From NCBI GenBank assembly GCA_012797975.1, contig JAAZOD010000015.1, positions 1 to 64,000 of the forward strand: a DNA stretch of 64,000 nt. The letters run 5' to 3'. The position numbers and the translations under genes are program-made. This document shows positions 38,541 to 54,062 of this stretch, in pieces. The stretch is from Pelolinea sp. Lineage in GTDB: Bacteria; Chloroflexota; Anaerolineae; Anaerolineales; Anaerolineaceae. Below the pieces are notes generated by a model, which ran no database searches, was not told the origin of the DNA, and worked only from the letters and a program-made list of their open reading frames with translations. Position 1 is the stretch's first letter; the number at the start of each line of letters is the position of its first letter.

Positions 38541-40115
38541 ATGAAATCCAAGAGAGCGATCCTGGCTGTCGACCTGGGGACTTCGGGGGTGAAGGTTGCC
38601 CTCATTGCCGTGGATGGGCAGGTGTTGGGTTGGGATAGCGAACCATTGAAGCTGATCCTCACCCGGGATGGCGGGACGGAACAGGCACCGCAGGAATGGT
38701 GGCAATCATTTTTGACCGCATCCAAACGGCTACTCAAGAAACATCAAGAACATGCCGCCGCGGTCTATGCGGTCTGCTGTTCCACCCAGGGGGAAGGTAC
38801 CGTGCCGGTGGACGAGCGCGGTCAGCCCTTGTCGAACTGCATCCTTTGGATGGACATGCGCGGGGCAGCCAACCTGAAGAAACAGCTTCAAGGAATGCTC
38901 AATATCGATGGCGCAGCCGTGCAAAAAGTGTTGCGCTTCATCCAATTGACCGGGGGAATGCCTTCCATGACCGGCAAAGATCCCTCAGCCCACATGCTGT
39001 ACATTCGCGATGAGATGCCGCACATCTACGAGAGAACCTACCGCTTCCTGAACGTGCTGGACTATATGAATCTGCGCCTGACAGGGAGGTTTGTAGCCAC
39101 TGCCGATTCCATCCTCACCTCCTGGGTGACCGACAACCGTGACCCGAACGACATTCATTATGATGACGGATTGATCAAAACACTGGGTGTGGACAAAGAG
39201 AAATTGCCCGAGATCGTTCCCTGCACCGCCGTGGTGGGCACGTTGCTGCCCGAGGTTGCCAGAGAACTTGGATTGAAGCCGGAGACAAGCGTGGTGGCCG
39301 GCTCCATCGATAACACCGCTGCCGCCATCGGCGCCGGTGCGGTGGAAGACTACGCTATGCATGTATATATTGGCACATCCTCCTGGATGGCTGCGCACGT
39401 GCCGTATAAAAAAACCGATCTCACTTCCTCGCTGGCCTCCGTCCCCTGTGCAGTTCCCGGGCGGTATCTCTTGACCGCCCTGCAGGCCACGGCAGGCGGG
39501 AACCTCACCTTCTTACGCGATAAGATCCTGTATCATAAAGACGAGCTGCTGCAAGAAGCAGATGTGCCCGATATTTTCAAAGTGCTGGACCAGATCGCCG
39601 AGCGGGTGCCCGCCGGAAGCCATGGTGTGATCTACACACCCTGGATCTGGGGCGAAAGAGCGCCGGTGGACGATCGCAATGTGCGCGCGGGACTTTTCAA
39701 TCTATCGCTCAACAGCAACCGCGAAGACATCATCCGCGCCTTTCTGGAAGGCATTGCATTGAACACGCGCTGGATGCTGGCCCCGGTGGAAAAGTTTCTC
39801 AAAAGGAAAGTGGAATCCATGACCATCGTGGGCGGGGGAGCGCAATCGAATGTATGGTGCCAGATCTTCGCCGATGTGATGAACGTGGAGATCAAACAGG
39901 CGGCAGATCCCGTTTGTGCCAATGCGCGCGGGGCGGCATGGATCGCGGCCGCTGGTTTGAACGAGATCGGCTTTGCCGACCTCCCACAGCTGACAAAAAT
40001 TCAACATACCTACCAGCCCAAAACAGCAAACCGGGCTACCTATGATGAGCGTTTCGCGGTCTTTTGTTCTGTCTACAAACAGATGAAGGGCATCTATCGA
40101 AAATTGAACGGCTGA
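38541..40115 (+). CDS. FGGY family carbohydrate kinase (xylulokinase-like)
   Basis: 524 aa, full length for FGGY kinases. The N-terminal domain begins ILAVDLGTSGVKVALIAVDG (ATP phosphate loop), with AVCCSTQGEGTVPVDERGQP and ILWMDMRG as the sugar-binding region. AGSIDNTAAAIGAGAVED and MTIVGGGAQSNVWCQIFADV belong to the second actin-like domain. It phosphorylates a pentulose, polyol or related compound after import. Last gene of the operon, 11 bp after the MFS gene. A stem-loop follows at 40120-40145. Confidence 0.9.
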   Translation: MKSKRAILAVDLGTSGVKVALIAVDGQVLGWDSEPLKLILTRDGGTEQAPQEWWQSFLTASKRLLKKHQEHAAAVYAVCCSTQGEGTVPVDERGQPLSNCILWMDMRGAANLKKQLQGMLNIDGAAVQKVLRFIQLTGGMPSMTGKDPSAHMLYIRDEMPHIYERTYRFLNVLDYMNLRLTGRFVATADSILTSWVTDNRDPNDIHYDDGLIKTLGVDKEKLPEIVPCTAVVGTLLPEVARELGLKPETSVVAGSIDNTAAAIGAGAVEDYAMHVYIGTSSWMAAHVPYKKTDLTSSLASVPCAVPGRYLLTALQATAGGNLTFLRDKILYHKDELLQEADVPDIFKVLDQIAERVPAGSHGVIYTPWIWGERAPVDDRNVRAGLFNLSLNSNREDIIRAFLEGIALNTRWMLAPVEKFLKRKVESMTIVGGGAQSNVWCQIFADVMNVEIKQAADPVCANARGAAWIAAAGLNEIGFADLPQLTKIQHTYQPKTANRATYDERFAVFCSVYKQMKGIYRKLNG

Positions 40116-40119
40116 CGCG

Positions 40120-40145
40120 TTGGGGAATGCTCTGTCATTCCCCAA
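40120..40145. terminator. Stem-loop between convergent operon end and yjbQ
   Basis: Perfect 10-bp stem TTGGGGAATG (40120-40129) with CATTCCCCAA (40136-40145), 6-nt loop. There is no clear T tract, so intrinsic termination is uncertain; the right arm includes the yjbQ stop region. Confidence 0.5.
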
Positions 40146-40554
40146 TGATCTTCACCAGCACTCGTTTTTTTCGATTTCCGTCAAATTCGCCGTAGAAGAT
40201 CTGTTCCCACGGTCCCAGATCAAGCTTTCCGCTGGTCACAGCCACCACCACCTCGCGCCCCATCACCTGCCGTTTGAGATGGGCATCCGCATTGTCCTCT
40301 CCGGTGCGGTTATGCTGGTAGGCGTTCAGCGGTTCGTGGGGCGCTAGTGCTTCAAGCCACACATCATAATCATGCAGCAAACCATTTTCATCATCGTTGA
40401 TATAGACACTGGCGGTAATGTGCATGGCATTCACCAGGCAAAGCCCTTCTTGCATGCCGCTTTCAAGCAGACATTTCTCAACCTGGGGGGTGATATTGCG
40501 ATACGCCCTGCGGGAAGGGATGTTGAACCACAGCTCTTTTCTGTAACTCTTCAT
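40135..40554 (-). CDS. yjbQ: YjbQ/UPF0047 family protein
   Basis: 139 aa, exactly the family size. [20 protein letters not shown] (about residues 38-57) and [21 protein letters not shown] (about 80-100) hold the conserved histidines, and [14 protein letters not shown] ends the core. Some members have weak thiamine-phosphate synthase activity in E. coli, but the physiological role is not settled. Convergent with the kinase operon. Nothing in the sequence ties it to the neighbours. Confidence 0.92.
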
Positions 40555-40707
40555 GCTTCACCTCGCTCGTGATGTTGTCCTTCTTCTCCATCGGTCTTTG
40601 AAAAGGATATGGATACCAATCTTAACACAAGCCATTCACCGCCACATTGTTTTCTCTATTCGCCAAAAGACAGGATTTATACAGTAAACTTAAAGATTGA
40701 GGAGACA

Positions 40708-41244
40708 ATGGAGAACGAGTCAATTTTTCAAGTTCATATGCCCGATGTGGATGTACGCCCGGGGTTGGAAGGAATCTTCCACCAGGCAAAAGAACTGGCA
40801 AAAGGAGAAACCCGGCTGGCAGATGGAAGCCACCTGCGGCGGGTGGTGATCGTATCACCCGGCAGACTGCTGTTGATCAAAGACTCCTATCCTCCCGATA
40901 CGCTGCCGATCGAATCGCGCATGGCATTGGAAGAGCTGTTGCCAGCCGATCGGGTGCTCAACATCGCGGTCATCGCCTACACGAATCTGGATGCGCTGCG
41001 GCAGGACATCCGCAAAGCCATCCCCTTCTTCGATTATTTACTGGGGTTTGCCTATTTGGGTCACGCGGTGTGGGTCTTTGAGGGCCACCGCTCCGCTCTG
41101 GAAATGGGCTGCACGGGGGCCGATTATGTGCTGGTCGATCAATGCATGCTGCCTTTTTTGGATCCCGGTTGGAAGAAAATCGTCCAAGAAAAAGCGCACG
41201 TCAAGAATGTGCGCATCCTTTCCATCCCGGACCAGCAGAAATAA
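40708..41244 (+). CDS. Uncharacterised conserved-looking protein
   Basis: 178 aa from ATG 40708, with GAGGAG just upstream; a longer frame from 40609 crosses what looks like promoter sequence and is rejected. Predicted soluble alpha/beta protein with regular hydrophobic strands (RRVVIVSPGRLLLI, RVLNIAVIAYTNLDAL, YLGHAVWVFEG, ADYVLVDQCMLPFL), reminiscent of a Rossmann-like fold without a nucleotide-binding loop. I do not recognise a family. Stands alone, followed by a terminator. Confidence 0.7.
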   Translation: MENESIFQVHMPDVDVRPGLEGIFHQAKELAKGETRLADGSHLRRVVIVSPGRLLLIKDSYPPDTLPIESRMALEELLPADRVLNIAVIAYTNLDALRQDIRKAIPFFDYLLGFAYLGHAVWVFEGHRSALEMGCTGADYVLVDQCMLPFLDPGWKKIVQEKAHVKNVRILSIPDQQK

Positions 41245-41272
41245 AAGACCCCGCCGATTCCAGCGGGGTCTT
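41245..41272. terminator. Intrinsic terminator
   Basis: 10-bp stem AAGACCCCGC (41245-41254) with GCGGGGTCTT (41263-41272), 8-nt loop. Placed between convergent genes. Confidence 0.75.
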
Positions 41273-41294
41273 CGATGACACGGGAAATTCCGAT

Positions 41295-42005
41295 CTATGG
41301 GTAGTTCTTATTGATGAACAGGTTGTATGTGATGTAATCTTCGTCGAGGTTGTAGAATTTGATGGCGATCTTTTCCTTCCACTGCAATTCGGTAGGAATG
41401 GCAAAGGTTGCCTGGAACGATCCGCCATCGGCCGAGTTCAAGCCGGCCACATAGTACCAGGTCTTTGCGGCAGAGGCGCCGTCTTTCATGTAAACCCCAA
41501 ACATATCGTCGGCGGGGAAATATTTGGTTTCCACGGTCACCGATTCACCCTTCACAACGCTGAGAATACTGAAGGTTGGAAAGTCATTGGGAGTGTACGG
41601 TTTTGGGGCAGGAGCCGCAGGAGTATAGGTGGTGTAATTGGCCGTATAGGATGTGGTGTTATAGAAGAAGTTGTAGCTGTAGTAGGGAGTGGTTGGACTT
41701 TCCAGGCGGATAGCAACAATATCTTCTCCCTTCAGTTCATCCGGAATATAGAATTTCGCTTTGAACGTTCCGCCAGCGCCGGTCCACAGTTTGGTAACCA
41801 AGATACCATTGATGCCCAGTGTTCCGTTGTATCCCATATAGACATAATACAGTTCATTGGCAGGGAACAAATATGTTTGGATGGTTACGGAATCATCGAC
41901 AACGACGCTCATGATATCGAATGTGGGGTATGTGGCTGCCTGGACGGGAACACACACAACCAGGATCAACAGTAATGCAACGAGCAGAGCAAATTTCTTT
42001 TTCAT
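41295..42005 (-). CDS. Secreted protein with two tandem ~90-residue beta repeats
   Basis: 236 aa from ATG 42005, which has GGAGGAGATC directly before it; the longer frame to 42065 is unlikely. A classic signal peptide (KKKFALLVALLLILVVCVPV then QA-A) precedes two copies of one domain: YPTFDIMSVVVDDSVTIQT with GTFKAKFYIPDELKGEDIVA, and FPTFSILSVVKGESVTVETK with GSFQATFAIPTELQWKEKIA. A proline/threonine-rich linker joins them. Each copy looks like an immunoglobulin-like beta sandwich. No catalytic motif. Possibly surface adhesion or matrix binding; function unknown. Confidence 0.8.
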   Translation of the reverse strand: MKKKFALLVALLLILVVCVPVQAATYPTFDIMSVVVDDSVTIQTYLFPANELYYVYMGYNGTLGINGILVTKLWTGAGGTFKAKFYIPDELKGEDIVAIRLESPTTPYYSYNFFYNTTSYTANYTTYTPAAPAPKPYTPNDFPTFSILSVVKGESVTVETKYFPADDMFGVYMKDGASAAKTWYYVAGLNSADGGSFQATFAIPTELQWKEKIAIKFYNLDEDYITYNLFINKNYP

Positions 42006-42149
42006 GATCTCCTCCGTGATCAAACTCTCAAGGGCGAAAACCCTGGATCTTAATACAAGCGGCATAGCAGGATGACACGCACCCCTGCTTCAGCTTTCAT
42101 TATAGCTAAATTTTTAAGGATAGCAATATCATTATTCAAAGTGCAACTA

Positions 42150-43265
42150 TTATGCCAGATTGTGCGCAACCCCTTCTTTCACATACGCATTGAGTTCTGC
42201 GATGCTCAGGTCTTTGATGCCCAATTTGTCCACCGTGCGCCCGGTGCGGTAATAGTCGGTCTTGTGAATGATGCAGGCCAGCCGGATCAGACTGTCGATC
42301 CCCCGCACGGAAATTCCGTACTGGTTTCCCAACGATGCGATGGGAACCAAACTCATGGGCACATCCTCAAAAATATAGCGATGCGAAAGGGTCGAAGGCG
42401 CTTTAATGCCATAATACCCGCTTTGGTTGTGGATCGCTTCGCGCAGGTCCTTTCCCTGCACGTTGTAGGCAAGCTCCAACCATTCCTGGGCAGTGCGGGC
42501 GCGAATGCCGACCGACGATGCCACCGTCACGCGTTCCCGGTCCAGCGCTTCCAACACGTACCCGACCGAAGGGGTGACGCCATCGATATAGAATTCGAAG
42601 TCGCCATGGGTCGATTCGATCCTGCCGGCATTGAGAATGGTCAATGCGGGATGAAAAATGGCACCCATGTTGTTCAAGCCCGTATGCAACACATCGATGC
42701 CGTGAATGAACTGCGGATACACATCCCCAATGGCGTTCAGCACCAATTCGGTGCGGTTGGCCGGCAAAGCAGCCACCGGCACCGCTTCTTTGATGCGGAA
42801 GATGCGCGCTTGGGCAGGTCCATCCGAACGGCTGGCATAGATGAACGTCTCGGTCTCAGCCACCACCGCATTGGCTTGGCAGCCCTCGCGGCGCAGGGTG
42901 GTATCAAACTCGATCGCGCCAAAGGTGCGCCCCGGGTTGAGAAGGATGATCTGCCCGTCATGCACATACGGAGCGATCCGCTTTGCCACGTCGGCATGCC
43001 CCGAGGAAGGCACCACCACCATGATCACCTCGGCGTTTTCCATTGCTTCGGAAACATCCGAGGTGGCTTTTTTCAGAACCGCAAACCCCTGCGGACCACC
43101 CGGAAAACTCTCCAATTCAATACCCCGGCGTTTTGCGATCACTTCAATGTGGCTGAAGGTGCGGTTGAAAAGAGTGACCTCTTTTCCCATCAATGCCAGG
43201 TGGGCAGCCATGGCCTTACCACCGTTACCGGCACCCACAACGGTATAGTTCTTTGGATATGTCAT
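42150..43265 (-). CDS. Opine (octopine/nopaline) dehydrogenase family enzyme
   Basis: 371 aa. The N-terminal dinucleotide-binding site is VVGAGNGGKAMAAHLALMGK (about residues 8-27). The C-terminal Octopine_DH domain has LNNMGAIFHPALTILNAGRI (about 212-231), where the conserved histidine would act in catalysis, and EALDRERVTVASSVGIRART. Family members reductively condense an amino acid with an alpha-keto acid, or run the reverse oxidation with NAD(P). The gene starts 15 bp after the cobalamin-enzyme gene and has AAGGAG before its ATG. With the Liv-type importer upstream, a catabolic direction is the better guess. Substrate unknown. Confidence 0.85.
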   Translation of the reverse strand: MTYPKNYTVVGAGNGGKAMAAHLALMGKEVTLFNRTFSHIEVIAKRRGIELESFPGGPQGFAVLKKATSDVSEAMENAEVIMVVVPSSGHADVAKRIAPYVHDGQIILLNPGRTFGAIEFDTTLRREGCQANAVVAETETFIYASRSDGPAQARIFRIKEAVPVAALPANRTELVLNAIGDVYPQFIHGIDVLHTGLNNMGAIFHPALTILNAGRIESTHGDFEFYIDGVTPSVGYVLEALDRERVTVASSVGIRARTAQEWLELAYNVQGKDLREAIHNQSGYYGIKAPSTLSHRYIFEDVPMSLVPIASLGNQYGISVRGIDSLIRLACIIHKTDYYRTGRTVDKLGIKDLSIAELNAYVKEGVAHNLA

Positions 43266-43280
43266 TTTGATCTCCTTCTT

Positions 43281-44921
43281 TCATAAAAACCGGGCAAGCC
43301 GCTCTTCTTCCGTTTGCGGATTCCCTTCTTCATCAACTACCTCGCAAGCTCCGTCGATGATCGCAGTCTTGACGGTCCCCCTGGCAAATTCATTACTGCA
43401 TAACTGCGGTGCATCCAAAATTCCACTGTTGACCGCCCTGGTGAGCACGCCCGCGTCGATCAGGGGATCCTTTTTCGGATCGGCATTGAGATTTTGTATG
43501 GCGCGTATCGTGATGGCCGCCTGCTGGATCAAATGCTCTTTCCGCTTTTGAATCCGCGGATCATCCAGCATGGCTGGCTGACCATGCAGCGCATTTTCGA
43601 TCACCCGCTGCGCCATCAGGCTGGCTTCGATCACATCGTGAGCGGTGGCAGCATGATGAGCTTCGGTATGCCCTACAATGTGGACAATATCGGGTTTGAG
43701 AGCCATCTGCACATAAATGCTGGAAGCCAGGTGCGCGCGAGCGGCATTCACCTCCAGCGGGTAACTGAGCAGCCCGGTGCGGGTTTGCTTCCATATTCGG
43801 AAATCTTCAGTTTCCAATGGAGCGCTCAGCTCAAGACATGCCAGCATTTTTGCCAGGTCCATTTCATCGGAGGTGCCGGGTGGGCTGTTGAACATCATCG
43901 GAGCAATATAATCGTGCGTGCCGAACGCCCTGGCAGTATAGGCGGCCAGGTAGGCCGCCACCACATACACCACATCCGGCGCATCGCGCATGCCCCAGTG
44001 GTGCGGTTCATTCAATTCCACCGGAACAGCATGCCCGCTGTACCAGCGGATCAGGTCTTGATGTTCGCGAATGCTGGTCTCAAGGTCAAAAGGTCCGCGC
44101 CCGTCCATCCGGTTGTACCAAAAGAGCGGCACGGCAGCCCAGCAGATGTGGATGGTTTCACAATACATGGAAGCCAGGCGGATCAGATCATTGGTCCCCG
44201 AATAGGTGCGCATGAGCGGATAGTTCCCCTTGCGCGACGCCTGATAGAGCCGCACATAATCATCCACGCTGCGAACCGGCACTCCTCCGGCACCCGTGGC
44301 CCGCGGATTTTGCCTGCCGGGATGAAAGAAATTCTCCTGGGCATCCTGATCGACGCCCAGAGAGATCACATCCAGCACTTTCGCATTCGCGATCTGTTCG
44401 ATCCCTTCCACGGTAGCCCTGACGGTGGGTTGCCCAAAATGATGGCGCAGCAAGGGAAAAGGACACTTCCACAGAATGCGCTCCACCGCATTTTGCGGAT
44501 AGAAAGGGGTACCGTTTTCGGTCAGCTCGTCACCGCGCAAAAAGGTGATGAGCTCTTCACGGGTTTGTGTTCCATCAAAAACCGCATTGAAGAAGCCCAG
44601 GGCACTGGCTTTTTCAGCCACCGGCGGCGTTCCGCCAAAGGCAAATTGGATGCCCTGGCCGCGCAGGTCATCGGCCGCCTCGGCGAACTCCGCGAGCAGC
44701 CGTTCACCCGTTTCGGGCGTCAGGCGATAGGAGACTGCCACCAGGTCGGCTTTTTCCTGTTGAGCGACTTGCAAGAATCTCTCGGCGGGAACCGCCGGAC
44801 CCAGAAAGACGGTCCTCCAACCGCATTGTTCCGCCAATCGCAGAAAGTTATAGACTCCCGCAACATGCACGCACTCCCCCAGTGCACCCGCCACGACCGT
44901 TTTCATTTTTTTGTTTGCCAC
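43281..44921 (-). CDS. Cobalamin-binding mutase-like enzyme (N-terminal B12 domain plus TIM-barrel catalytic domain)
   Basis: 546 aa from GTG 44921 (ATG 44906 is an alternative). The N-terminal 130 residues look like a B12-binding Rossmann domain: GECVHVAGVYNFLRLAEQCG has HxxG as in DxHxxG but with cysteine in the aspartate position, AVSYRLTPETG matches the S-x-L step and FAFGGTPP the terminal GG. The rest (about 170-546) resembles the barrel of cobalamin-dependent carbon-skeleton or amino mutases such as glutamate mutase E: RTYSGTNDLIRLASMYCETI, FGTHDYIAPMMFNSPPGTSD and HIVGHTEAHHAATAHDVIEA. Co-directional with an opine-dehydrogenase gene. Reaction unknown; family call is from motifs only. 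Confidence 0.65.
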   Translation of the reverse strand: MANKKMKTVVAGALGECVHVAGVYNFLRLAEQCGWRTVFLGPAVPAERFLQVAQQEKADLVAVSYRLTPETGERLLAEFAEAADDLRGQGIQFAFGGTPPVAEKASALGFFNAVFDGTQTREELITFLRGDELTENGTPFYPQNAVERILWKCPFPLLRHHFGQPTVRATVEGIEQIANAKVLDVISLGVDQDAQENFFHPGRQNPRATGAGGVPVRSVDDYVRLYQASRKGNYPLMRTYSGTNDLIRLASMYCETIHICWAAVPLFWYNRMDGRGPFDLETSIREHQDLIRWYSGHAVPVELNEPHHWGMRDAPDVVYVVAAYLAAYTARAFGTHDYIAPMMFNSPPGTSDEMDLAKMLACLELSAPLETEDFRIWKQTRTGLLSYPLEVNAARAHLASSIYVQMALKPDIVHIVGHTEAHHAATAHDVIEASLMAQRVIENALHGQPAMLDDPRIQKRKEHLIQQAAITIRAIQNLNADPKKDPLIDAGVLTRAVNSGILDAPQLCSNEFARGTVKTAIIDGACEVVDEEGNPQTEEERLARFL

Positions 44922-45011
44922 TTCATTCTTTTTTCATGGGTAGTAAAGACCAATGCCAGAACCGTTGAAAAGATGGATCACAAGAGAAAAACCAAAAGGT
45001 TAACAAGCGGT

Positions 45012-45392
45012 TTATCCAATATTACCAAAAAAACTGGCCATCTCCCGACCAATTCTTTCAACGGATGAAACCGGTTTTCCCATCCGGCAAATATGGGGAA
45101 CCCAACCGATCAATGGAAATCCGTGACAGGCAGGCCCTCCGGCCGGAATGACATTCACTCCCCTATCGCGGATGATCTCCACCACTCAGTTGGGAGCATC
45201 CACACCGCTGATGATCACGAAAGCGCTGGAAACAGGATTCGGGCATGATACGCCCAACCATCCCCGGCAGACCGCGTGCGCTGTTATTCCCGTGGGATTG
45301 ATCCAGGGTTCTCAGGGATTATATTGGGGAGCGGCCTGGAAAAACGCATGAATTACAATGCTATGGCACTCCCCTGCGGCAGGGTGAACCTT
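45012..45392 (-). pseudogene. Decayed gene fragment with two in-frame TGA codons
   Basis: On the minus strand a frame open from about 45392 to the TAA at 45012-45014 (126 codons) is interrupted only by TGA at 45312-45314 and 45186-45188. Its translation is protein-like: INPTGITAHAVCRGWLGV, SSAFVIISGVDAPN(stop)VVEIIRDRGVNVI, PAGGPACHGFPLIGWVPHIC and a natural end SVERIGREMASFFGNIG. Tryptophan at both TGA positions would read well, as expected for TGG-to-TGA decay. I do not recognise the family. It lies between the liv operon and the cobalamin enzyme, on the same strand, so it may be a lost component of that pathway. Confidence 0.5.
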
Positions 45393-45395
45393 CTA

Positions 45396-45428
45396 TAAAA
45401 ACAAGCGCTCGATTGCTCGAGCGCTTGT
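45396..45428 (-). terminator. Terminator of the liv operon
   Basis: 12-bp perfect stem ACAAGCGCTCGA (45401-45412) with TCGAGCGCTTGT (45417-45428), TTGC loop, followed on the minus strand by TTTTTATAG. It starts directly after the livF stop. Confidence 0.88.
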
Positions 45429-45429
45429 T

Positions 45430-46146
45430 TCACGCCACGCCCAGATAGGTTTTCTGCACCATTTCGCTTTCGCGCAGCTCTTTCGACATGCCGCTCAAAC
45501 TGACCAAACCGGTCTGCAGCACATATCCGCGATCGGCAATGGCCAGCGCCAGTTTTGTATTCTGCTCGACCAGCAAGACGGTGGTGCCCTGTGCGTTGAT
45601 CTCTTTAATGTTGTCAAAGATGCTTTCCAGCAAAATGGGAGCCAAGCCCATGGAAGGCTCATCCAACAGAAGCAGTTTTGGTTTTGCCATCAATGCGCGG
45701 GCAATTGCCAGCATTTGCTGCTCACCACCCGAAAGCGTGCCGGCGGATTGCTTGGCGCGTTCTTTCAAGCGGGGAAAAAGCTGGAAGACATTTTCGATGT
45801 CCTGCTGAATGGCGGTGCGGTCTTTGCGTGTGAACGCACCCATCTCCAGATTTTCCAGCGTGGTCAGTTTTGAGAACACATGCCTGCCTTCGGGGACCAT
45901 GGAGATGCCTTTTTCCACGATACGATGCGCATCCAGCAAGGTAATCTCCTCATTATTGAAAAAGATCGACCCTTCTTGAGGATGCAGAAGGCCGGTTATC
46001 GATTTCAAGGTGGTGGTTTTTCCCGCGCCATTGGATCCGATCAAACAGACGATCTCACCCGCATTCACCTCAAAGGTTACACCTTTCAAGGCACAAATAT
46101 TTCCATAGTAGGTTTTTATACCGTTCACTTGAAGTAAAGGAGCCAT
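45430..46146 (-). CDS. livF: Branched-chain amino acid-type ABC transporter ATPase LivF
   Basis: About 238 aa from ATG 46146, which has AAAGGAA at good distance; a GTG at 46164 overlaps the livG stop. Walker A GSNGAGKTTT (about 36-45), QQMLAIARALMAKPKLLLLD after the LSGGE signature, and the short LivF-type C terminus. One of two ATPases powering uptake with LivG; the substrate is set by the binding protein LivK. Last gene of the operon. Confidence 0.93.
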   Translation of the reverse strand: MAPLLQVNGIKTYYGNICALKGVTFEVNAGEIVCLIGSNGAGKTTTLKSITGLLHPQEGSIFFNNEEITLLDAHRIVEKGISMVPEGRHVFSKLTTLENLEMGAFTRKDRTAIQQDIENVFQLFPRLKERAKQSAGTLSGGEQQMLAIARALMAKPKLLLLDEPSMGLAPILLESIFDNIKEINAQGTTVLLVEQNTKLALAIADRGYVLQTGLVSLSGMSKELRESEMVQKTYLGVA

Positions 46147-46160
46147 GAGCATTTCCTTTG

Positions 46161-46937
46161 TCACTGATAGAGATCGTTTTTCTTGCCGAGGTAGGCCTCA
46201 ATAACGGTGGGGTTGTTTTGGATCTCGGCCGGTTTTCCTTCGGCAATTTTGGATCCAAAATCAAGCACAATGATCTTTTCACTGACCTGCATAACCAGCT
46301 TGATGTCATGTTCGATCAGGATGATCGTGATGCCCAGTTCATCGCGCAGACGCCGGATGAGCTTGATCATTTCCTGGGTTTCCGCCGGATTCATCCCTGC
46401 CGTGGGTTCATCCAGCAGCAGGATCTTGGGATTATTCGCGATAGCCCTGGCGATCTCCAGTTTTCGTTGTGCCCCATACGAGAGATTGCACGCCAGTTGA
46501 TCACCACAGCCGCACAACCCGACAAAGTTCAGGATCTTCTTCGCCGTTTGAAGCGAGTCCCGTTCTTCAGAGCGGTAGCGTCGGGAGGATATCAAAGAAT
46601 CGCCCAGAGAGCTGTGCAAGCAGATATGTTCGCCGGCCAGGATGTTCTCCAAAGCGGTGAGGCTTCTATAGAGGCGGATATTTTGATAGGTGCGGGAGAT
46701 GCCTTCCTCCGCGATCTTATGCGGGGGAAGTCCGGTGATCTCTTTTTCAAGAAAGAGAATGCTGCCGTATTCCGGTTTGTAGTAGCCCGTGATGCAATTG
46801 AAGAAAGTGGTTTTCCCGGCTCCGTTGGGGCCAATGACGCTGGAGATAGAAGCCTGTTGAACTTCAACGTTGAGATCATGAATGGCCTCAAGACCGCCAA
46901 ATCGTTTTGTCACATTCGAAGAAGATAGGATATTCAT
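46161..46937 (-). CDS. livG: Branched-chain amino acid-type ABC transporter ATPase LivG
   Basis: 258 aa. Walker A GPNGAGKTT near residue 37, the LivG-specific insertion with RTYQNIRLYRSLTALENIL, LSYGAQRKLEIARAIANNPK and Walker B LLLDEPTAGMNP. Ends with the extended C terminus (EAYLGKKNDLYQ) of this subfamily. Stop overlaps the livF leader and its start overlaps the livM end, showing tight coupling. Confidence 0.94.
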   Translation of the reverse strand: MNILSSSNVTKRFGGLEAIHDLNVEVQQASISSVIGPNGAGKTTFFNCITGYYKPEYGSILFLEKEITGLPPHKIAEEGISRTYQNIRLYRSLTALENILAGEHICLHSSLGDSLISSRRYRSEERDSLQTAKKILNFVGLCGCGDQLACNLSYGAQRKLEIARAIANNPKILLLDEPTAGMNPAETQEMIKLIRRLRDELGITIILIEHDIKLVMQVSEKIIVLDFGSKIAEGKPAEIQNNPTVIEAYLGKKNDLYQ

Positions 46938-47956
46938 GATTGCACCTCTTTTTTTGTGTCCGGCAAGCCGGAGGAATTCTCTTCAAACTTCGGGGCTTTG
47001 CGTGGCAGAAAACCCTGCGGGCGCAAGATCATCATGATGATCAGGAGCAGTCCAAAGATGATCATGCGATAATCGGAAAAACCACGCAAAATATCGGGCA
47101 GGGCGATCAATGCCATGGCGCCCAGGATGACACCCATCTGATTTCCCAGCCCACCCAGGATGATCACACACAGGATATTGATGGACACATTCATATTGAA
47201 ATTATCCGGGAAGATCGAACCCTGCCACGAAGCAAAGATCGCCCCTCCCAGCCCGCCAATGAAAGCACCAATGGCAAAGGCCAGTATCTTGTACTTGGAC
47301 GTGTCAATGCCTGACATCTGTGCCACATCTTCATCCTCACGCATTGCCAGCCAGGCCCGCCCGGTGCGCGAATTGATCACCCGGTTGAGGAGGAAGAGCA
47401 ATAAAGCGACCAGGGCAAAAATGAAATAATAAAAGTACTTGCCGTTGCTGAAGTTCAGACCCAGGATAATCGGCTTATCGATCTGGATGATGCCCTGGGA
47501 ACCATTGGTAATATCGGTCAGATTCATCAACAACATGCGTACTATTTCGCCGAAACCCAGTGTGACAATGCCCAGATAATCTCCGCGCAATTTAAGAACG
47601 GGGATGCAAATCAAGGAACCCACCAGTGCCGCCAAAACACCGGCGATGAGAATGACCACCAGGAACGGCAAATGAATGTTGAAATGAGGGGATGCCAAAA
47701 ATGCGCAGGTATAGGCGCCGATGGCATAGAAAGCTGCAAAACCAAGGTCAAACATGCCGGCCAACCCCACGTGCACCAATAACCCCAACCCCAGAATAAT
47801 GTACAGTCCCGCATATCCGATGATGCGGATCCACAGGTTCTGCTGGGGAAAGTTGAACAGCGGGATAGAAAGGATGATGACAGAAATCAGAGCAGGAAGC
47901 ACCGTGCGCAGCAATCGCTGGTCAAGTTTTGTGGTAAGTCTGTTTTTGTTCTTCAT
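46934..47956 (-). CDS. livM: Branched-chain amino acid-type ABC permease LivM
   Basis: About 340 aa from ATG 47956, preceded by GGTGGAATT; an upstream ATG at 47974 overlaps the livH stop by 4 bp and is an alternative. Eight to ten helices; conserved VTLGFGEIVRMLLMNLTDIT and SRTGRAWLAMREDEDVAQMS (the EAA-like loop that contacts the ATPases), then GGLGGAIFASWQGSIFPDNF. Forms the membrane channel with LivH. Confidence 0.94.
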   Translation of the reverse strand: MKNKNRLTTKLDQRLLRTVLPALISVIILSIPLFNFPQQNLWIRIIGYAGLYIILGLGLLVHVGLAGMFDLGFAAFYAIGAYTCAFLASPHFNIHLPFLVVILIAGVLAALVGSLICIPVLKLRGDYLGIVTLGFGEIVRMLLMNLTDITNGSQGIIQIDKPIILGLNFSNGKYFYYFIFALVALLLFLLNRVINSRTGRAWLAMREDEDVAQMSGIDTSKYKILAFAIGAFIGGLGGAIFASWQGSIFPDNFNMNVSINILCVIILGGLGNQMGVILGAMALIALPDILRGFSDYRMIIFGLLLIIMMILRPQGFLPRKAPKFEENSSGLPDTKKEVQS

Positions 47957-47970
47957 AATTCCACCCGACC

Positions 47971-48981
47971 TCATAGTTTGTTCTTTCCGCCGCTGCCGCC
48001 CAGGATGCCGGTCGGTTTGACGATCAGCATGACGATCAGGATGGCAAACGCAACGATATCCTTATACACAGCGGGCAAAAATTGAACACTGATCACTTCC
48101 GCCAATCCCAATAAATACCCTCCGAGCATGGCGCCCGGGATATTCCCGATGCCGCCTACCACGGCCGCCGTGAAAGCTTTGATGCCGGGTGTGAAACCCA
48201 TGGTCGTGCGAATTTGCAGATAAAAGATTCCCATCATCACCCCGGCAATCCCCGCCAGGGCCGAACCGATAAAGAACGTGCTGGAAATGATCCTGTTCAC
48301 ATTGATCCCCATCAAGGAGGCCGTCTCTTTATCCTCCGAAACAGCGCGCATCGCCTTTCCCAATTTGGTGAATCGAACAAGCAAATAGAGCAGGACCATG
48401 AACACAATGGCGACCGCCATGATCAAAATACGGCTGTACGATATTGAAACCCCGCCCAGTTTGATTCCTTCCGTTCCCAAAATGCCGGGGTACGCTTTTA
48501 CCATCGCACCGCCAAATGTTTGCGTGACTTTGACGATGGCAGATCTCCAACTGGCAGGGAAAATGTACTGTTCTCCAAAATGAATGGAACTGATCATGGA
48601 CCCAAATTTCGGGACCAGCCGCACAAACTCTTCCAAAAAAATGGATGTGCCGATGGCGCTGATCAGCGTGGACAGACGGCTCGCTTTACGGAGTGGACGA
48701 TATGCTAATCGCTCAACGGTAACACCGGTCAACGCAGCGCCAAGTGCGCCGGCCGCAAAGGTATAAATAATTGCTAAAGCAGGATTGCTCTCTGCAAAAC
48801 CGCTTTTTGATAATTGCGTGATCGTAAAACACCCAAAATAAGCCCCGACCATAAAGATGTCGCCATGGGCAAAATTGATCATGGACAGTACACCATACAC
48901 CATCGTGTAACCCAGGGCGATGAGTGCATAGAAACTACCCACGGTCAAACCATTAATAAGTTGCTCAATTATTTTTTGCAT
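47971..48981 (-). CDS. livH: Branched-chain amino acid-type ABC permease LivH
   Basis: 336 aa. N-terminal INGLTVGSFYALIALGYTMV followed by YGVLSMINFAHGDIFMVGAY is the signature of LivH, and TKLGKAMRAVSEDKETASLM is the ATPase-contact loop. About eight helices. It is slightly longer than E. coli LivH because of a loop around residues 110-165. Separated from livK by 54 bp containing a G/C hairpin. Confidence 0.94.
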   Translation of the reverse strand: MQKIIEQLINGLTVGSFYALIALGYTMVYGVLSMINFAHGDIFMVGAYFGCFTITQLSKSGFAESNPALAIIYTFAAGALGAALTGVTVERLAYRPLRKASRLSTLISAIGTSIFLEEFVRLVPKFGSMISSIHFGEQYIFPASWRSAIVKVTQTFGGAMVKAYPGILGTEGIKLGGVSISYSRILIMAVAIVFMVLLYLLVRFTKLGKAMRAVSEDKETASLMGINVNRIISSTFFIGSALAGIAGVMMGIFYLQIRTTMGFTPGIKAFTAAVVGGIGNIPGAMLGGYLLGLAEVISVQFLPAVYKDIVAFAILIVMLIVKPTGILGGSGGKNKL

Positions 48982-49006
48982 AACGCACCCTCCCGAAAGA
49001 GATGGA

Positions 49007-49028
49007 AAGGGGGGATCGCTCCCCCCTT
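49007..49028 (-). terminator. Hairpin between livK and livH (partial terminator)
   Basis: AAGGGGGG (49007-49014) with CCCCCCTT (49021-49028), 6-nt loop. Placed right after the livK stop. Such hairpins commonly stabilise or partly terminate the binding-protein message so that it exceeds the permease message. No strong T tract. Confidence 0.55.
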
Positions 49029-49035
49029 GAAGGTT

Positions 49036-50280
49036 TTATTGACCGAAATCGTAAACTTTTACAGGAACCAGCTCTTCGCCTTGGGCCTGGAACACGGTGA
49101 TGGAAACAACTTTCAAGTCACCGTTTTCGTCGAATTCAAGATGACCGGTGATGCCGTCATACGGAGCGGCACGAACCGCATCAGCCAGTGCTTTCTTGGG
49201 GATAACCAGATTCCCATCGCTATCCACGGTCGCTACTGCTTTGGCAGCATTCAGGATGATCATGGCAGCATCATAAGAACCGGGGCCATAGGCAATGGGG
49301 TCGCCGAATTGTTCCGTGAACTTGGTCAGGAATTCATCGTAACCGGTTGCGCCACCCACTGCACCGAAGGTCATATAGGCACCTTCCGCAGCGCCGCCAG
49401 CCGCATCGACGAAGGAAGGAATGGATTTAATGCCATCGGGGCCGAAGAAAACGCCCTCAAAGCCAGCTGCTCGCAATTGATTCACCAGCAAGGCACCTTC
49501 GGCATCCATGCCGCCCCAGTAAATGGCAGCCGGGTTGGCTTCCAGAATGGTCGAAACGACCGCAGAAAAATCAGTGTCGCCGCGCGTGATGCCTTCGAGA
49601 CCGGTAACCGTACCACCGGCAGCTTCGAACTTGGCCTTTACCGCTTCGGCAATGCCCTGACCGTAGATGCTTTGATCATGCACAATGCCCAGGGTGGTCA
49701 AACCAAGCACATTGAACAGATAATCAACCGCCACCTGCGCCTGCAGGTCATCGTTCGCCACAATTCGGAAAACATTCTGGTTTCCAGCGGCGGTCACCGG
49801 GATAGCGGTGGAAGAGGGAGTGATCATGAGAACATGATTCTCCGCATAGATATCCATGGCCGGAATGGCAGTGCCGGAGCACATGGGGCCGACCACGCCG
49901 ACCAGATACGGATTGGCAGAGAATTGCTCGGCAACGGTCACACCCGGCGCACCTTCGCATTGATCATCACCGCCTTCGACTACAACCTCCCATCCATTCA
50001 AATCACCAAAGGTTTGAACGGCGACTGTAGCACCATTGAGCATGTCTTGCCCATAAGCGGCATAACCGGCAGAGAGCGCGGATGAAAGACCCAGCACGAC
50101 CTTTTCTCCGGCAGGGATTGTGATGTAGCCCCATTCATCTTCTACAGCGGAATCAGCAGTGTCTGCAGCATCGGCTGCTTCGGTAGATACCGCTTCTTCA
50201 GCCGGGGCTTTGCCACCGCAAGCTGCGAATAACAGCATTGCAATGGTCAAGAAAGATACAAAAAATAAGCGTTTTGACAT
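49036..50280 (-). CDS. livK: ABC transporter substrate-binding lipoprotein, LivK/Leu-Ile-Val-binding type
   Basis: 414 aa from ATG 50280, with GGAGGAGACTT directly upstream. Signal peptide and lipobox end at LLFAACGG. A Glu/Ala-rich linker (about 22-45) is followed by a type I periplasmic-binding fold: VVLGLSSALSAGYAAYGQDM, then GVVGPMCSGTAIPAMDIYAE and HDQSIYGQGIAEAVKAKFEA. It captures the substrate outside the cell and delivers it to LivHM. Members bind amino acids, amides, urea or aromatic acids; the neighbouring opine-dehydrogenase and cobalamin genes suggest an amino-acid derivative, by inference only. Confidence 0.93.
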   Translation of the reverse strand: MSKRLFFVSFLTIAMLLFAACGGKAPAEEAVSTEAADAADTADSAVEDEWGYITIPAGEKVVLGLSSALSAGYAAYGQDMLNGATVAVQTFGDLNGWEVVVEGGDDQCEGAPGVTVAEQFSANPYLVGVVGPMCSGTAIPAMDIYAENHVLMITPSSTAIPVTAAGNQNVFRIVANDDLQAQVAVDYLFNVLGLTTLGIVHDQSIYGQGIAEAVKAKFEAAGGTVTGLEGITRGDTDFSAVVSTILEANPAAIYWGGMDAEGALLVNQLRAAGFEGVFFGPDGIKSIPSFVDAAGGAAEGAYMTFGAVGGATGYDEFLTKFTEQFGDPIAYGPGSYDAAMIILNAAKAVATVDSDGNLVIPKKALADAVRAAPYDGITGHLEFDENGDLKVVSITVFQAQGEELVPVKVYDFGQ

Positions 50281-50470
50281 AAGTCTCCTCCAATTGGCAT
50301 TCGTATTGTGATTCATCGAAATAAGGGCAGGTTCTTTTTTCGTGGCACATCACCTCCTTTGTGATGATGGTTTCGATAATTCCAGGGTTTAAAAAAAATC
50401 CTTCTACAGTAACAAGAGGTTAGGATAAGAAGGTCGCTGTAATGCGGGACGCCTGTAATTAATTGGCGCG

Positions 50471-50499
50471 ATTATCCCACAAATGAGGACAAATGTCAA
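50471..50499 (-). promoter_or_regulatory. livK promoter
   Basis: Minus-strand TTGACA (50499-50494), 17-bp spacer, GATAAT (50476-50471). About 190 nt separate it from the livK ATG, a long leader. Confidence 0.75.
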
Positions 50500-50516
50500 C
50501 TATTTTGCGTGATGAA

Positions 50517-50534
50517 TGTCATATTTGTATGACA
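50517..50534. promoter_or_regulatory. Perfect palindrome upstream of the livK promoter (candidate operator)
   Basis: TGTCATA-TTTG-TATGACA, an 18-bp site with perfect 7-bp arms. It lies 18 bp upstream of the livK -35, the position of a class I/II activator site. The MalT/BTAD regulator gene ends 27 bp further on, in the same direction. Binding protein unknown. Confidence 0.55.
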
Positions 50535-50560
50535 AATTCAGGGGGGATTTCGTTTTTTAT

Positions 50561-53500
50561 CTACGATTTAGGTTGAACCAAGGATTGAAAATAGCGGGTG
50601 GTGTTCTCAGAAGGCTCCAACCCATATTCCCTGGCAAGCTGCTGTTTGCACTGTTCATATACCCGAATGATGGCAGCCGTATTTCCCATGGAGTAATAGA
50701 TGCTCATGGCATTGCAAAAAGCGTCTTCATTCGATGGGTCATTATGAATGATCAACTTATTGAATTGCAGCGCTTTTTCCATGTTTTTTTGCGCCATGAA
50801 ATAGGCATACAACTTGTTGAGCGCATTCATATAGGTCTCAAAATAGCGCTGCCGTTCCACGCCGAACCAGGTGGCATCCACATCCGCGAGGAATGGACCC
50901 TTATAGAGCTCAACAGCAGCTTCCAATGATTGTGCGGCCCTTTGAGGATCCTTCTCGTTCTCCGCCTGGGCAATATACTGTTCAAAGGAAAGCACGTCGT
51001 AATCAAAATCCAGGGCATTATTGAAGCGATAATAATTATCGTTGAAAACAACGGCATTGGAGCCGATGGCCCTGCGCATGCGATAGATGGCATTTTTGAA
51101 TCTGCGTTTCAATTCTTCCATGGAAGAATCAGGCCACAGGATGACGCCCACCTCTTCCTTTGTCATTCCTTCAGGGTTGGAAAGGAACAAGAAAAAGAGG
51201 TCACGGGAGGTCTGTGTCATCCAATCGGAGGTGGAAAGCAGTTTATTGTTCAGGTATACTTCCGGTTTTCCAAAGCCGCGGATGATGAGCTTGGGCTCGG
51301 CAAAGGGGACCACCGAAGCATGCTTTCGAATCTTGCGCCGCACATTTTGTATCTTCTTTTGGTAATTTGCATTTTGATCGAGGATCACTTCCAGCAGGTC
51401 CGCTATGCCCGCCTGGCCGGAGATCATTTTCAAATCGTTCCGCAGGTCAAAACAGACGGAAAGGGCCTGCGTATTGGAGGAGGATTGGCTGAGATTCTTG
51501 ACGATTTCTTGAAAGATCTCCGCAGACTCTTTTCCCTGTTTGGATTTTGCCAGTACCAGCGCAAGATACAGGTTGATGGTCAATAATGTATCCGTCTGGC
51601 CGACGTTCTCGAAAAATTCTCGCGCTGCGAGCAATTGGGTTGAGGCAGCCGAAAAATCACCGAAATAATAGGAGAGAATGGCTTTTTCTACTTTGCACTG
51701 CTCCGTTTCCAACGGGGATTTGGACCTTTTTGCCTGGTTGAACGCCAGATCCAGCAGGGTATTGGCCTGTTTGAACTGCTTCTGGAGGATCTTGATCCTT
51801 GTTTCGGCAAGCCGGAGATAGAGCACCAGATACTGGTCTTCAATGTTTTGTGCAATTTTCATCGCATCGGAATATGCTTCCAACGATTCGTGATACGCAT
51901 CGAGATTTCGATAGAGGTCGCCAATGCTGGCAAGCGAATAGCCTTCCATACGACGATTTCCGCTCATCTTGGCATAGTCCATGGCTTTTTCGAGATTCAC
52001 AAAACTGTTCTCAAAATCACCTTTTGCGTGCTGCAGCACACCCAGGTTGTTATACAGCGTTGATTGCCAGATGGAATCGCCTATTTGCTTCCAGAACTGC
52101 AGCGATTGATGGTAAGCATCTTCTGCCTCAGCAAAATTTCCGCGTGTTTCATGGATCGCACCCAGTTCGACCAGCACTCTGGCACAATCTTCCTGAGAAT
52201 TCAAGCGGTGATAGAGCTCTAATGATTTCTTCACCCATGCCAACGCATCATCCAAATTTCCTTGCTGGTAGTGATTGATGCCGATCGCGCGCATGGCTTC
52301 CGCTTTGACGGGGATCGGCTTTTTCATTGCGCTGCAAAGCTCCAGCGCATGCTGTGCATCTGTCAGCGATTCCGGGTACTTCCCCAGCATGCGCAAGGTG
52401 GTGGAACGGCGCACCAGGTTTTCAGCCATCAGGGTTTTATCCACATCGGTCTTCTCTTGCAGATCGATGACGGTATTCAACAATTCAAGCCCACCCGGCA
52501 GGTCACCCTTATTCACCTCGATGCTGGCTTTGATGGAAAGCAGCTTGGGATTCGAGCATATCTTCTCTTCAGGAATGGCGGAAAACCAATTTTCAAGGCG
52601 TTTGATCTTCCCCTTCGCAATAAAGGAGGAGCCGATCGATTCAATGAGGCCAATAATGGTGTCGATCTCCCCCAATTTAGAATAGAGGATGAGCACACGC
52701 TCCCAATCCTGGGAGCTGGTATAGTATTCCGCCAACCTGCGCAGAATTTTGCTGGTTTCATCCGGATATAAGGTTTCCATGCGATGCTGCAGGAAATCGC
52801 GGAACAAATGATGATACCGCAGCCATGATCCTTCATCGCCGATTCGCACAACAAACAGGTTATTGAAAACGATATCTTCCATCAAAGACTGCCAGTTGCA
52901 GTCCACGTTCAAAGCCCGCCCGATGATCTGCTGGCACATATCAGGATTGAACTCCTCCAATAACGAGGACCATAGTAAGAAACGCTGGATTTCCGCATTT
53001 TGTTGATCCAGCACCTGCTGGGCCAGATATTCGTATAATCCGATCCCGGAAGTCCGGCTGATCTTTGATTGGTCTCCGATGCCTTTATTGCCAACCTGCG
53101 CCGTCAGAAGAAGCCCGGTGATCCACCCTTCGCTCTGGCGAGCGTAATCCTCGGCTTCCTCCATGCTGATCTCGATATTATTGTTCTTCTCAAACAGCTT
53201 CTTGATCTCCTCGGGTTGAAAGACCAGCTCTTCCAAACTCAACCCGCCGACCTGCGAACGAGCAACCAACAAAGGAAGATCAGGCAATGTTAACAGGGTG
53301 CGCGAGTTGACCACCAGATGGAAGTTCTCCCCCACCTTCTGCAAAAAACTGCTCAAGAACTCATCGATCTCTTTCCCCTGATTCACCAGATGGTAATCAT
53401 CCAGGACCAAAATGAAATGTTCGGTGATATTTTCGAAAATATCGTTCGTGATGGTTGTGACCAGGGAATCGATATCCAATTCGTCTTCATTCAAGGATTG

Positions 53501-53809
53501 CATCATGGCATTGGAGCGAATTCCAAAGTTCGGAAAACGCTGCTGGATGGCTGAGATGAAGTACGTCAGAAAACGGGTGAGGTTTTGATCCAGCGGGTCC
53601 AGCGCCAGCCAAGTGACCGGCCAATCATACGAGGTGGCATAATCGATCATCAACGAGGTTTTCCCATACCCGGCCGGAGCGGCGATGATGATCAATTTGA
53701 AATCCAGCAGATCATCCAGCAGAGCCAGCAACCTTGGGCGTGACAAAAGTTCCTTCCTGCGTTGAGGAACGATGATTTTAATCTGAGAGATTGGTGAAAA
53801 CCATGCCAT
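50561..53809 (-). CDS. Large ATP-dependent transcription regulator: MalT-like NTPase, TPR repeats, SARP/BTAD output
   Basis: 1082 aa. N-terminal STAND-type NTPase: Walker A AAPAGYGKTSL (about residues 43-53), then WPVTWLALDPLDQNLTRFLT and the Walker B-like ILVLDDYHLVNQGKEID. The middle (about 370-760) contains tetratricopeptide repeats (for example ALAWVKKSLELYHRLNSQED). The C terminus holds a winged-helix OmpR-like DNA-binding domain (about 840-925, FLFLSNPEGMTKEEVGVILW) and a BTAD domain (about 935-1080), as in AfsR/SARP activators. It should sense a ligand through the TPR/NTPase part and activate nearby genes. Lies directly upstream of and co-oriented with the liv operon. Confidence 0.9.
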   Translation of the reverse strand: MAWFSPISQIKIIVPQRRKELLSRPRLLALLDDLLDFKLIIIAAPAGYGKTSLMIDYATSYDWPVTWLALDPLDQNLTRFLTYFISAIQQRFPNFGIRSNAMMQSLNEDELDIDSLVTTITNDIFENITEHFILVLDDYHLVNQGKEIDEFLSSFLQKVGENFHLVVNSRTLLTLPDLPLLVARSQVGGLSLEELVFQPEEIKKLFEKNNNIEISMEEAEDYARQSEGWITGLLLTAQVGNKGIGDQSKISRTSGIGLYEYLAQQVLDQQNAEIQRFLLWSSLLEEFNPDMCQQIIGRALNVDCNWQSLMEDIVFNNLFVVRIGDEGSWLRYHHLFRDFLQHRMETLYPDETSKILRRLAEYYTSSQDWERVLILYSKLGEIDTIIGLIESIGSSFIAKGKIKRLENWFSAIPEEKICSNPKLLSIKASIEVNKGDLPGGLELLNTVIDLQEKTDVDKTLMAENLVRRSTTLRMLGKYPESLTDAQHALELCSAMKKPIPVKAEAMRAIGINHYQQGNLDDALAWVKKSLELYHRLNSQEDCARVLVELGAIHETRGNFAEAEDAYHQSLQFWKQIGDSIWQSTLYNNLGVLQHAKGDFENSFVNLEKAMDYAKMSGNRRMEGYSLASIGDLYRNLDAYHESLEAYSDAMKIAQNIEDQYLVLYLRLAETRIKILQKQFKQANTLLDLAFNQAKRSKSPLETEQCKVEKAILSYYFGDFSAASTQLLAAREFFENVGQTDTLLTINLYLALVLAKSKQGKESAEIFQEIVKNLSQSSSNTQALSVCFDLRNDLKMISGQAGIADLLEVILDQNANYQKKIQNVRRKIRKHASVVPFAEPKLIIRGFGKPEVYLNNKLLSTSDWMTQTSRDLFFLFLSNPEGMTKEEVGVILWPDSSMEELKRRFKNAIYRMRRAIGSNAVVFNDNYYRFNNALDFDYDVLSFEQYIAQAENEKDPQRAAQSLEAAVELYKGPFLADVDATWFGVERQRYFETYMNALNKLYAYFMAQKNMEKALQFNKLIIHNDPSNEDAFCNAMSIYYSMGNTAAIIRVYEQCKQQLAREYGLEPSENTTRYFQSLVQPKS

Positions 53810-54062
53810 TTCTACCTATTGTATCAGTGAGTAAAAAGGTAGAACATAGGACGGATGGTGTAATTATTCATTTTTTACCTGTTTTCTCCCACTTTTGTAC
53901 ACAAAAATCCACATCAGCCCTTTAATTGTATAGCAAGATGCAAGATTAATTCCAACCTTATGCGGAAATCATCTTGTTTCTGTAAAGGAAGGACAGCTTG
54001 TGGAGAAATCTGGCAATGGATGTGCTCTTCCCTCTCGCCAGCGCGTCCTTGCACAGCGGGGA

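Follow-up and report, generated by a model that had tools for sequence, protein, structure and literature searches.

A window of 64,000 nucleotides from Pelolinea sp. (GCA_012797975.1, contig JAAZOD010000015.1, positions 1 to 64,000) carries a gene for a B12-type mutase directly next to a gene of the opine dehydrogenase (ODH) family, just downstream of a Liv-type importer on the same strand. This raises the question of whether these genes serve one pathway, and if so, which kind of compound the two enzymes could share and in which direction they would work.

Layout of the locus and position of the Liv importer

Both open reading frames are real genes on the minus strand, separated by a 15-bp gap, in agreement with the first-pass annotation of this DNA. 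The main elements of the locus are:

45430..50316, minus strand: livK-H-M-G-F importer, assigned by Pfam/NCBIfam matches; a neighbour, judged to lie outside the module
45400..45429, minus strand: predicted intrinsic terminator directly 3' of the livF stop, with a 13-bp perfect stem and a T-run
43281..44921, minus strand: mutase, 546 aa, N-terminal B12-binding domain and glutamate-mutase-like barrel in a single chain
43268..43275, minus strand: Shine-Dalgarno-like AGGAG stretch inside the mutase-ODH gap, read directly from the sequence
42150..43265, minus strand: ODH gene, 371 aa, PF02317

The mutase start is the GTG at 44921, with the ATG at 44906 as another possible candidate, and AAGGAGAT is found just 5' of the ODH start. 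No Rfam match to a cobalamin riboswitch was obtained across positions 40000-54000; a PduO-type cobalamin adenosyltransferase is encoded in the genome.

The Liv (HAAT) branched-chain amino acid ABC importer is complete, with a binding protein, two permeases and two ATPases (matches below the NCBIfam equivalog cut-offs), as the annotation had claimed for livKHMGF. Its further suggestion that this importer is "dedicated" to the pair and forms one co-oriented block with it did not hold up. That Liv, mutase and ODH constitute one dedicated import-and-breakdown operon is very improbable: the genes are close together on the same strand and one other locus (L006) keeps an orthologous Liv set, but livF is followed by a strong terminator (-26.9 kcal/mol, z -4.8, with 0/200 shuffles as stable) and a distance of about 0.5 kb to the mutase. 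Of the 42 loci whose upstream sequence reaches 9 kb or more, L006 was the only one with an orthologous Liv set upstream of the pair, two others had unrelated Liv sets, and the closest relatives (L003-L005) had no orthologous set. Because of the terminator after livF and the conservation in only 1/42 loci, the importer is judged from the sequence to be a separate transcription unit that is incidental to the mutase-ODH module, and the idea of a dedicated Liv importer was rejected. Just upstream of livK and on the same strand, the window also encodes a 1082-aa MalT-like TPR regulator with a BTAD domain (50561-53809, minus strand), which may control the Liv operon.

A glutamate-mutase-like protein with an altered active site

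The B12-binding domain and mutase barrel proposed earlier were both matched by profile and structure, the barrel lying outside curated families. Pfam detects the B12-binding domain (PF02310, residues 7-123, 1.1e-9), and the barrel has no match to any Pfam or NCBIfam family. A profile built from 59 relatives nevertheless aligned with canonical GlmE over 379 columns (hhalign, E 4.1e-6). An AlphaFold2 model based on that alignment (mean pLDDT 90.8, pTM 0.88) found the glutamate mutase epsilon subunit as its best PDB match in Foldseek (6h9e_B, E 1.1e-13, TM 0.64 on target), followed by ornithine and lysine aminomutases and methylmalonyl-CoA mutase, while the N-domain matched glutamate mutase sigma (1i9c). 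Based on the profile match to GlmE and the Foldseek matches of the predicted fold, the protein is assigned to the AdoCbl mutase superfamily, whose hallmark combination of a B12-binding Rossmann domain and a TIM-barrel-type catalytic domain is present; according to the model, it unites both glutamate mutase parts in a single chain that begins with the B12 domain, and we infer AdoCbl-dependent chemistry. In glutamate mutase itself (GlmS and GlmE, with GlmL/MutL), the best fold match for both barrel and B12 domain, these parts are separate subunits and GlmE belongs to PF06368.

Residue numbers of the mutase follow alignment A1, without the first residue. The cobalamin motif is encoded as follows:

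44865..44873, minus strand: Cys16-Val17-His18 codons of the CxHxxG motif, with Cys at the position of the usual Asp

The cysteine in place of the aspartate of DxHxxG, already remarked upon in the first reading of the sequence, is a family-wide feature rather than a peculiarity of this genome. C16, H18 and G21 do not vary among 58 relatives of the window type (type A) and 11 MutL-fused ones, so that CxHxxG is shared by both branches of the mutase family (the second, MutL-fused branch is described below), and His18 is the predicted lower ligand. The unusual motif, together with the Pfam detection of the B12 domain only, could mean that the protein is no mutase but senses corrinoids or carries methyl groups, its barrel being catalytically dead. 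This is improbable, as the top whole-length Foldseek matches are all AdoCbl mutases (E 1e-13 to 1e-6), one branch carries a MutL reactivase domain, and the two branches, at only 35-38% identity, have 96 invariant positions in common, many of them polar residues of the barrel.

Judged by alignment, the substrate site differs from that of glutamate mutase. In the profile alignment, GlmE Arg100 corresponds to Gln194, itself invariant, and GlmE Glu171 to Ala261/262. These two GlmE residues are substrate residues of glutamate mutase, with Glu171 binding the amine, and a mutase that lacks their equivalents may not act on a free acidic amino acid. Additional arginines are invariant (R158, R216, R237, R274, R311, R380), of which those on beta-1 and beta-3 (R158, R237) give the impression, in the alignment, of being shifted by two residues relative to GlmE. 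None of the 96 positions that the two branches keep invariant holds a lysine. Ornithine 4,5- and lysine 5,6-aminomutases, which have the same superfamily fold but are weaker fold matches, are PLP enzymes with a conserved PLP-binding lysine; since the mutase family has no invariant lysine, a PLP aminomutase is unlikely. Amino-group migration, one of the two reaction types suggested before, is disfavoured on the same grounds and because the closest relative, glutamate mutase, is a carbon-skeleton enzyme.

The classical methylaspartate pathway was considered as well and discarded: canonical GlmE (PF06368) has no match in the source genome, and methylaspartase is represented by a weak, partial match that is probably another enolase-superfamily protein. 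Classical glutamate mutase clusters have methylaspartate ammonia-lyase as a partner, whereas the partner of the window mutase is an ODH.

Conservation of the mutase-ODH pair in two mutase branches

Absence of the pair from all other genomes had been named beforehand as the finding that would speak against it; instead, the pairing is conserved far beyond the source genome. A scan of GTDB contigs for the mutase yielded a best set of 80 loci (61-81% identity), almost all of them assigned by name to Chloroflexota or one of its classes, and in 78 of these best 80 the ODH is the direct same-strand neighbour, lying upstream instead of downstream of the mutase in two (L064, L069). The remaining two are L032, where two genes are inserted between mutase and ODH, and L070, whose contig ends 221 bp past the mutase match. 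Among 400 Chloroflexota genomes sampled evenly, 27 have the mutase and 26 an ODH with 58% identity or more, each time on the mutase contig at a distance of 18-251 bp (26/26); the lone mutase without an ODH lies 2 bp from its contig end. This co-occurrence gives a Fisher p of 6e-40 with shared ancestry ignored, and mutase and ODH distances correlate over 75 loci (Mantel r 0.47, 0/1000 permutations as high). Our literature search, with most subscription journals outside its reach, found no paper describing the pairing, and searches of plasmids returned classical GlmL/GlmE clusters only and no window-type mutase.

A second branch of the mutase family, with 35-38% identity to the window type, is fused to a MutL reactivase domain, a further likeness to the glutamate mutase system. 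It came to light in genome G184, where the C-terminal half of a relative with 35% identity is a MutL domain (PF13941, 4.8e-80) and its gene overlaps a neighbouring Octopine_DH gene (9.3e-35) by 4 bp. A search with the MutL half found long mutase-MutL fusions in 15 more genomes. These proteins (L112:4233-8027 and 15 further genomes), in which the mutase and a complete MutL/GlmL domain form one polypeptide of about 1,250 aa, represent a system of its own. The source genome of the window has no MutL reactivase gene.

An ODH adjoins the MutL-fused mutase in 11/11 loci with enough flank, upstream in seven with ODHs from one clade and downstream in four with ODHs from another. In an ODH tree (n=31), the window type and the two types associated with fused mutases form three separate, fully supported groups, although these three clades are not fully independent data. 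That the mutase family keeps an ODH partner despite changes in ODH clade and gene order is the strongest evidence for one shared pathway. Altogether, these observations point to the mutase and ODH as a conserved two-enzyme module of an uncharacterised pathway in many Chloroflexota.

The opine dehydrogenase, the shared compound and the direction of the pathway

The ODH is a clear PF02317 member (1.2e-46, 158.9 bits against a cut-off of 30) with a Rossmann NAD(P) motif GxGxxG/A (GAGNGG) and an Octopine_DH domain. Its closest solved relative is ArODH of Arthrobacter sp. 1C (1BG6, whole-length match 7.8e-76), with which it shares the PF02317 fold family and the aligned catalytic His-Asp dyad (His in FHP, Asp in FEDVP), conserved in relatives. 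At two positions that bear on substrate choice, alignment to 1BG6 reveals a difference:

42927..42929, minus strand: Arg113 codon (ArODH Ala111 position), invariant in 110/110 type-A rows
42663..42665, minus strand: Gly201 codon (ArODH Asn198 position), invariant in 110/110 type-A rows

ArODH, an NAD enzyme for apolar amino acids, has Ala111, Asn198 and Asp34, where the window ODH has Arg113, Gly201 and, after beta-2, Asn34-Arg35. The replacement of Asp34 by N34-R35 fits a pocket of the NADP(H) type. Double exchange of Ala/Asn and Arg/Gly at ArODH positions 111/198 switches between apolar and acidic amino acids (PMC10787698). For the hot-spring mODHs of the same study, the preferred substrates, together with pyruvate and NADPH, are L-aspartate, L-glutamate and sulfonate analogues, and one of the enzymes has a Km of 24.8 mM for aspartate (PMC10787698). 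Aspartate may therefore be a surrogate. These mODHs share with the window ODH the Arg/Gly signature, a non-Asp residue at the NAD ribose position and ArODH as closest known relative, a likeness drawn from the description in the paper; the paper mentions no mutase (PMC10787698).

All 17 paired ODHs compared carry the Arg/Gly signature, which is missing from 13/14 unpaired Chloroflexota ODHs; one of the 14 has both residues. The 11 ODHs beside fused mutases have it. This signature in the window ODH and in the paired ODHs compared supports, at the level of sequence, an acidic amino acid as the compound shared by the two enzymes, though it may be an inherited trait of the ODH2 clade and not one that arose as an adaptation to the mutase partner. 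The earlier proposal of amino-acid-derivative chemistry therefore stands in kind, narrowed by the signature to acidic amino acids. The unpaired ODH that has both residues is the last gene of a Dpp oligopeptide importer operon (L202:1-6397, G192:C155) in which no mutase was seen.

The reading that we favour, and consider reasonably probable, is a single pathway that joins an AdoCbl-dependent rearrangement of a carbon skeleton to opine chemistry linked to NADP(H), acting on an acidic amino acid or the corresponding opine. The mutase would be an AdoCbl radical enzyme whose substrate, an acidic compound of the glutamate family, has its carbon skeleton rearranged. The ODH would join pyruvate or a related 2-oxo acid reductively to an acidic L-amino acid, or catalyse the reverse, and the product of one enzyme would be the substrate of the other. 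We infer the exact substrate and direction. A glutamate-like amino acid might be converted to a 3-methylaspartate-like one, from which the ODH would form the N-(1-carboxyethyl) opine. Alternatively, the compound that the mutase rearranges could be the opine, in which an acidic amino acid bears an N-(1-carboxyethyl) group, giving a secondary amine and three carboxylates. The latter is a possible but rather doubtful variant, which would account for the absence of the free-amine-binding Glu171, for the extra invariant arginines and for a pairing with an acidic-substrate ODH that is nearly obligatory. If true, B12 radical chemistry would here rearrange an N-substituted amino acid, a reaction for which we know of no precedent.

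As to direction, ODHs generally favour opine formation at equilibrium. The fixed order of import, rearrangement and oxidation laid out in the first-pass annotation is not borne out, since this equilibrium and the NADP(H)-type pocket make synthesis at least as likely. For the window-type pair (type A), synthesis is slightly favoured over breakdown because of both these features, the lack of a conserved importer and the asparagine-synthetase-like neighbours (see below). Conversely, the MutL-fused type looks catabolic, as Dpp-type importers and RpiR regulators adjoin it at most loci, and the evidence on direction from the two branches conflicts. Catabolic salvage, which we lean against but still regard as tenable, would begin with import of an opine or a gamma-glutamyl or peptide-like compound, followed by oxidative cleavage by the ODH to an acidic amino acid and a 2-oxo acid, and rearrangement of the amino acid to a usable skeleton by the mutase. 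Besides these importers and regulators, it could draw on the gamma-glutamyltranspeptidase, racemase-like protein or amidohydrolase encoded at the MutL-fused loci L169/L170, with the gamma-glutamyltranspeptidase present in both, and on the Dpp operon closed by the sole unpaired signature-bearing ODH, but it has to contend with the lack of any importer conserved at window-type pairs, the NADP(H)-type pocket and the general equilibrium toward opines.

AdoCbl carbon-skeleton mutases are known for a small set of reactions. A mutase family with an altered active site that is tied by gene order to an ODH for acidic substrates offers a direct route to a new reaction and metabolite. The pathway may also supply the natural substrate of the hot-spring ODHs of the same signature, which have been measured only with poor surrogates (PMC10787698).

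Several other genes recur around the pair. An asparagine-synthetase-like gene lies close by in 13 loci, in the same orientation and in most cases immediately downstream (for example L040:12875-14236, L032:4476-5846 and L025:252-1640). One subtype starts with MSGIAG, or is degenerate, at the expected glutamine-hydrolysing Cys, and may, judging from these residues, act on a different amine or produce a lactam. At L032 the mutase is followed by a D-glutamate-cyclase-like gene (PF14336, 1.4e-70), then by the asparagine-synthetase-like gene and finally by the ODH, with overlapping ends; the cyclase-like gene (L032:3403-4479) in this translationally overlapping operon is seen at this locus only. A DUF5698/DUF2179 membrane protein occurs near the pair in 16 loci, and a mannosylglycerate-hydrolase-like protein and exchangers for Na+/H+ and Na+/Ca2+ also recur there. 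Neighbours of these kinds, at L035, L038, L047, L053, L058, L063, L081 and others, hint at an ion or osmolyte context for the pair.
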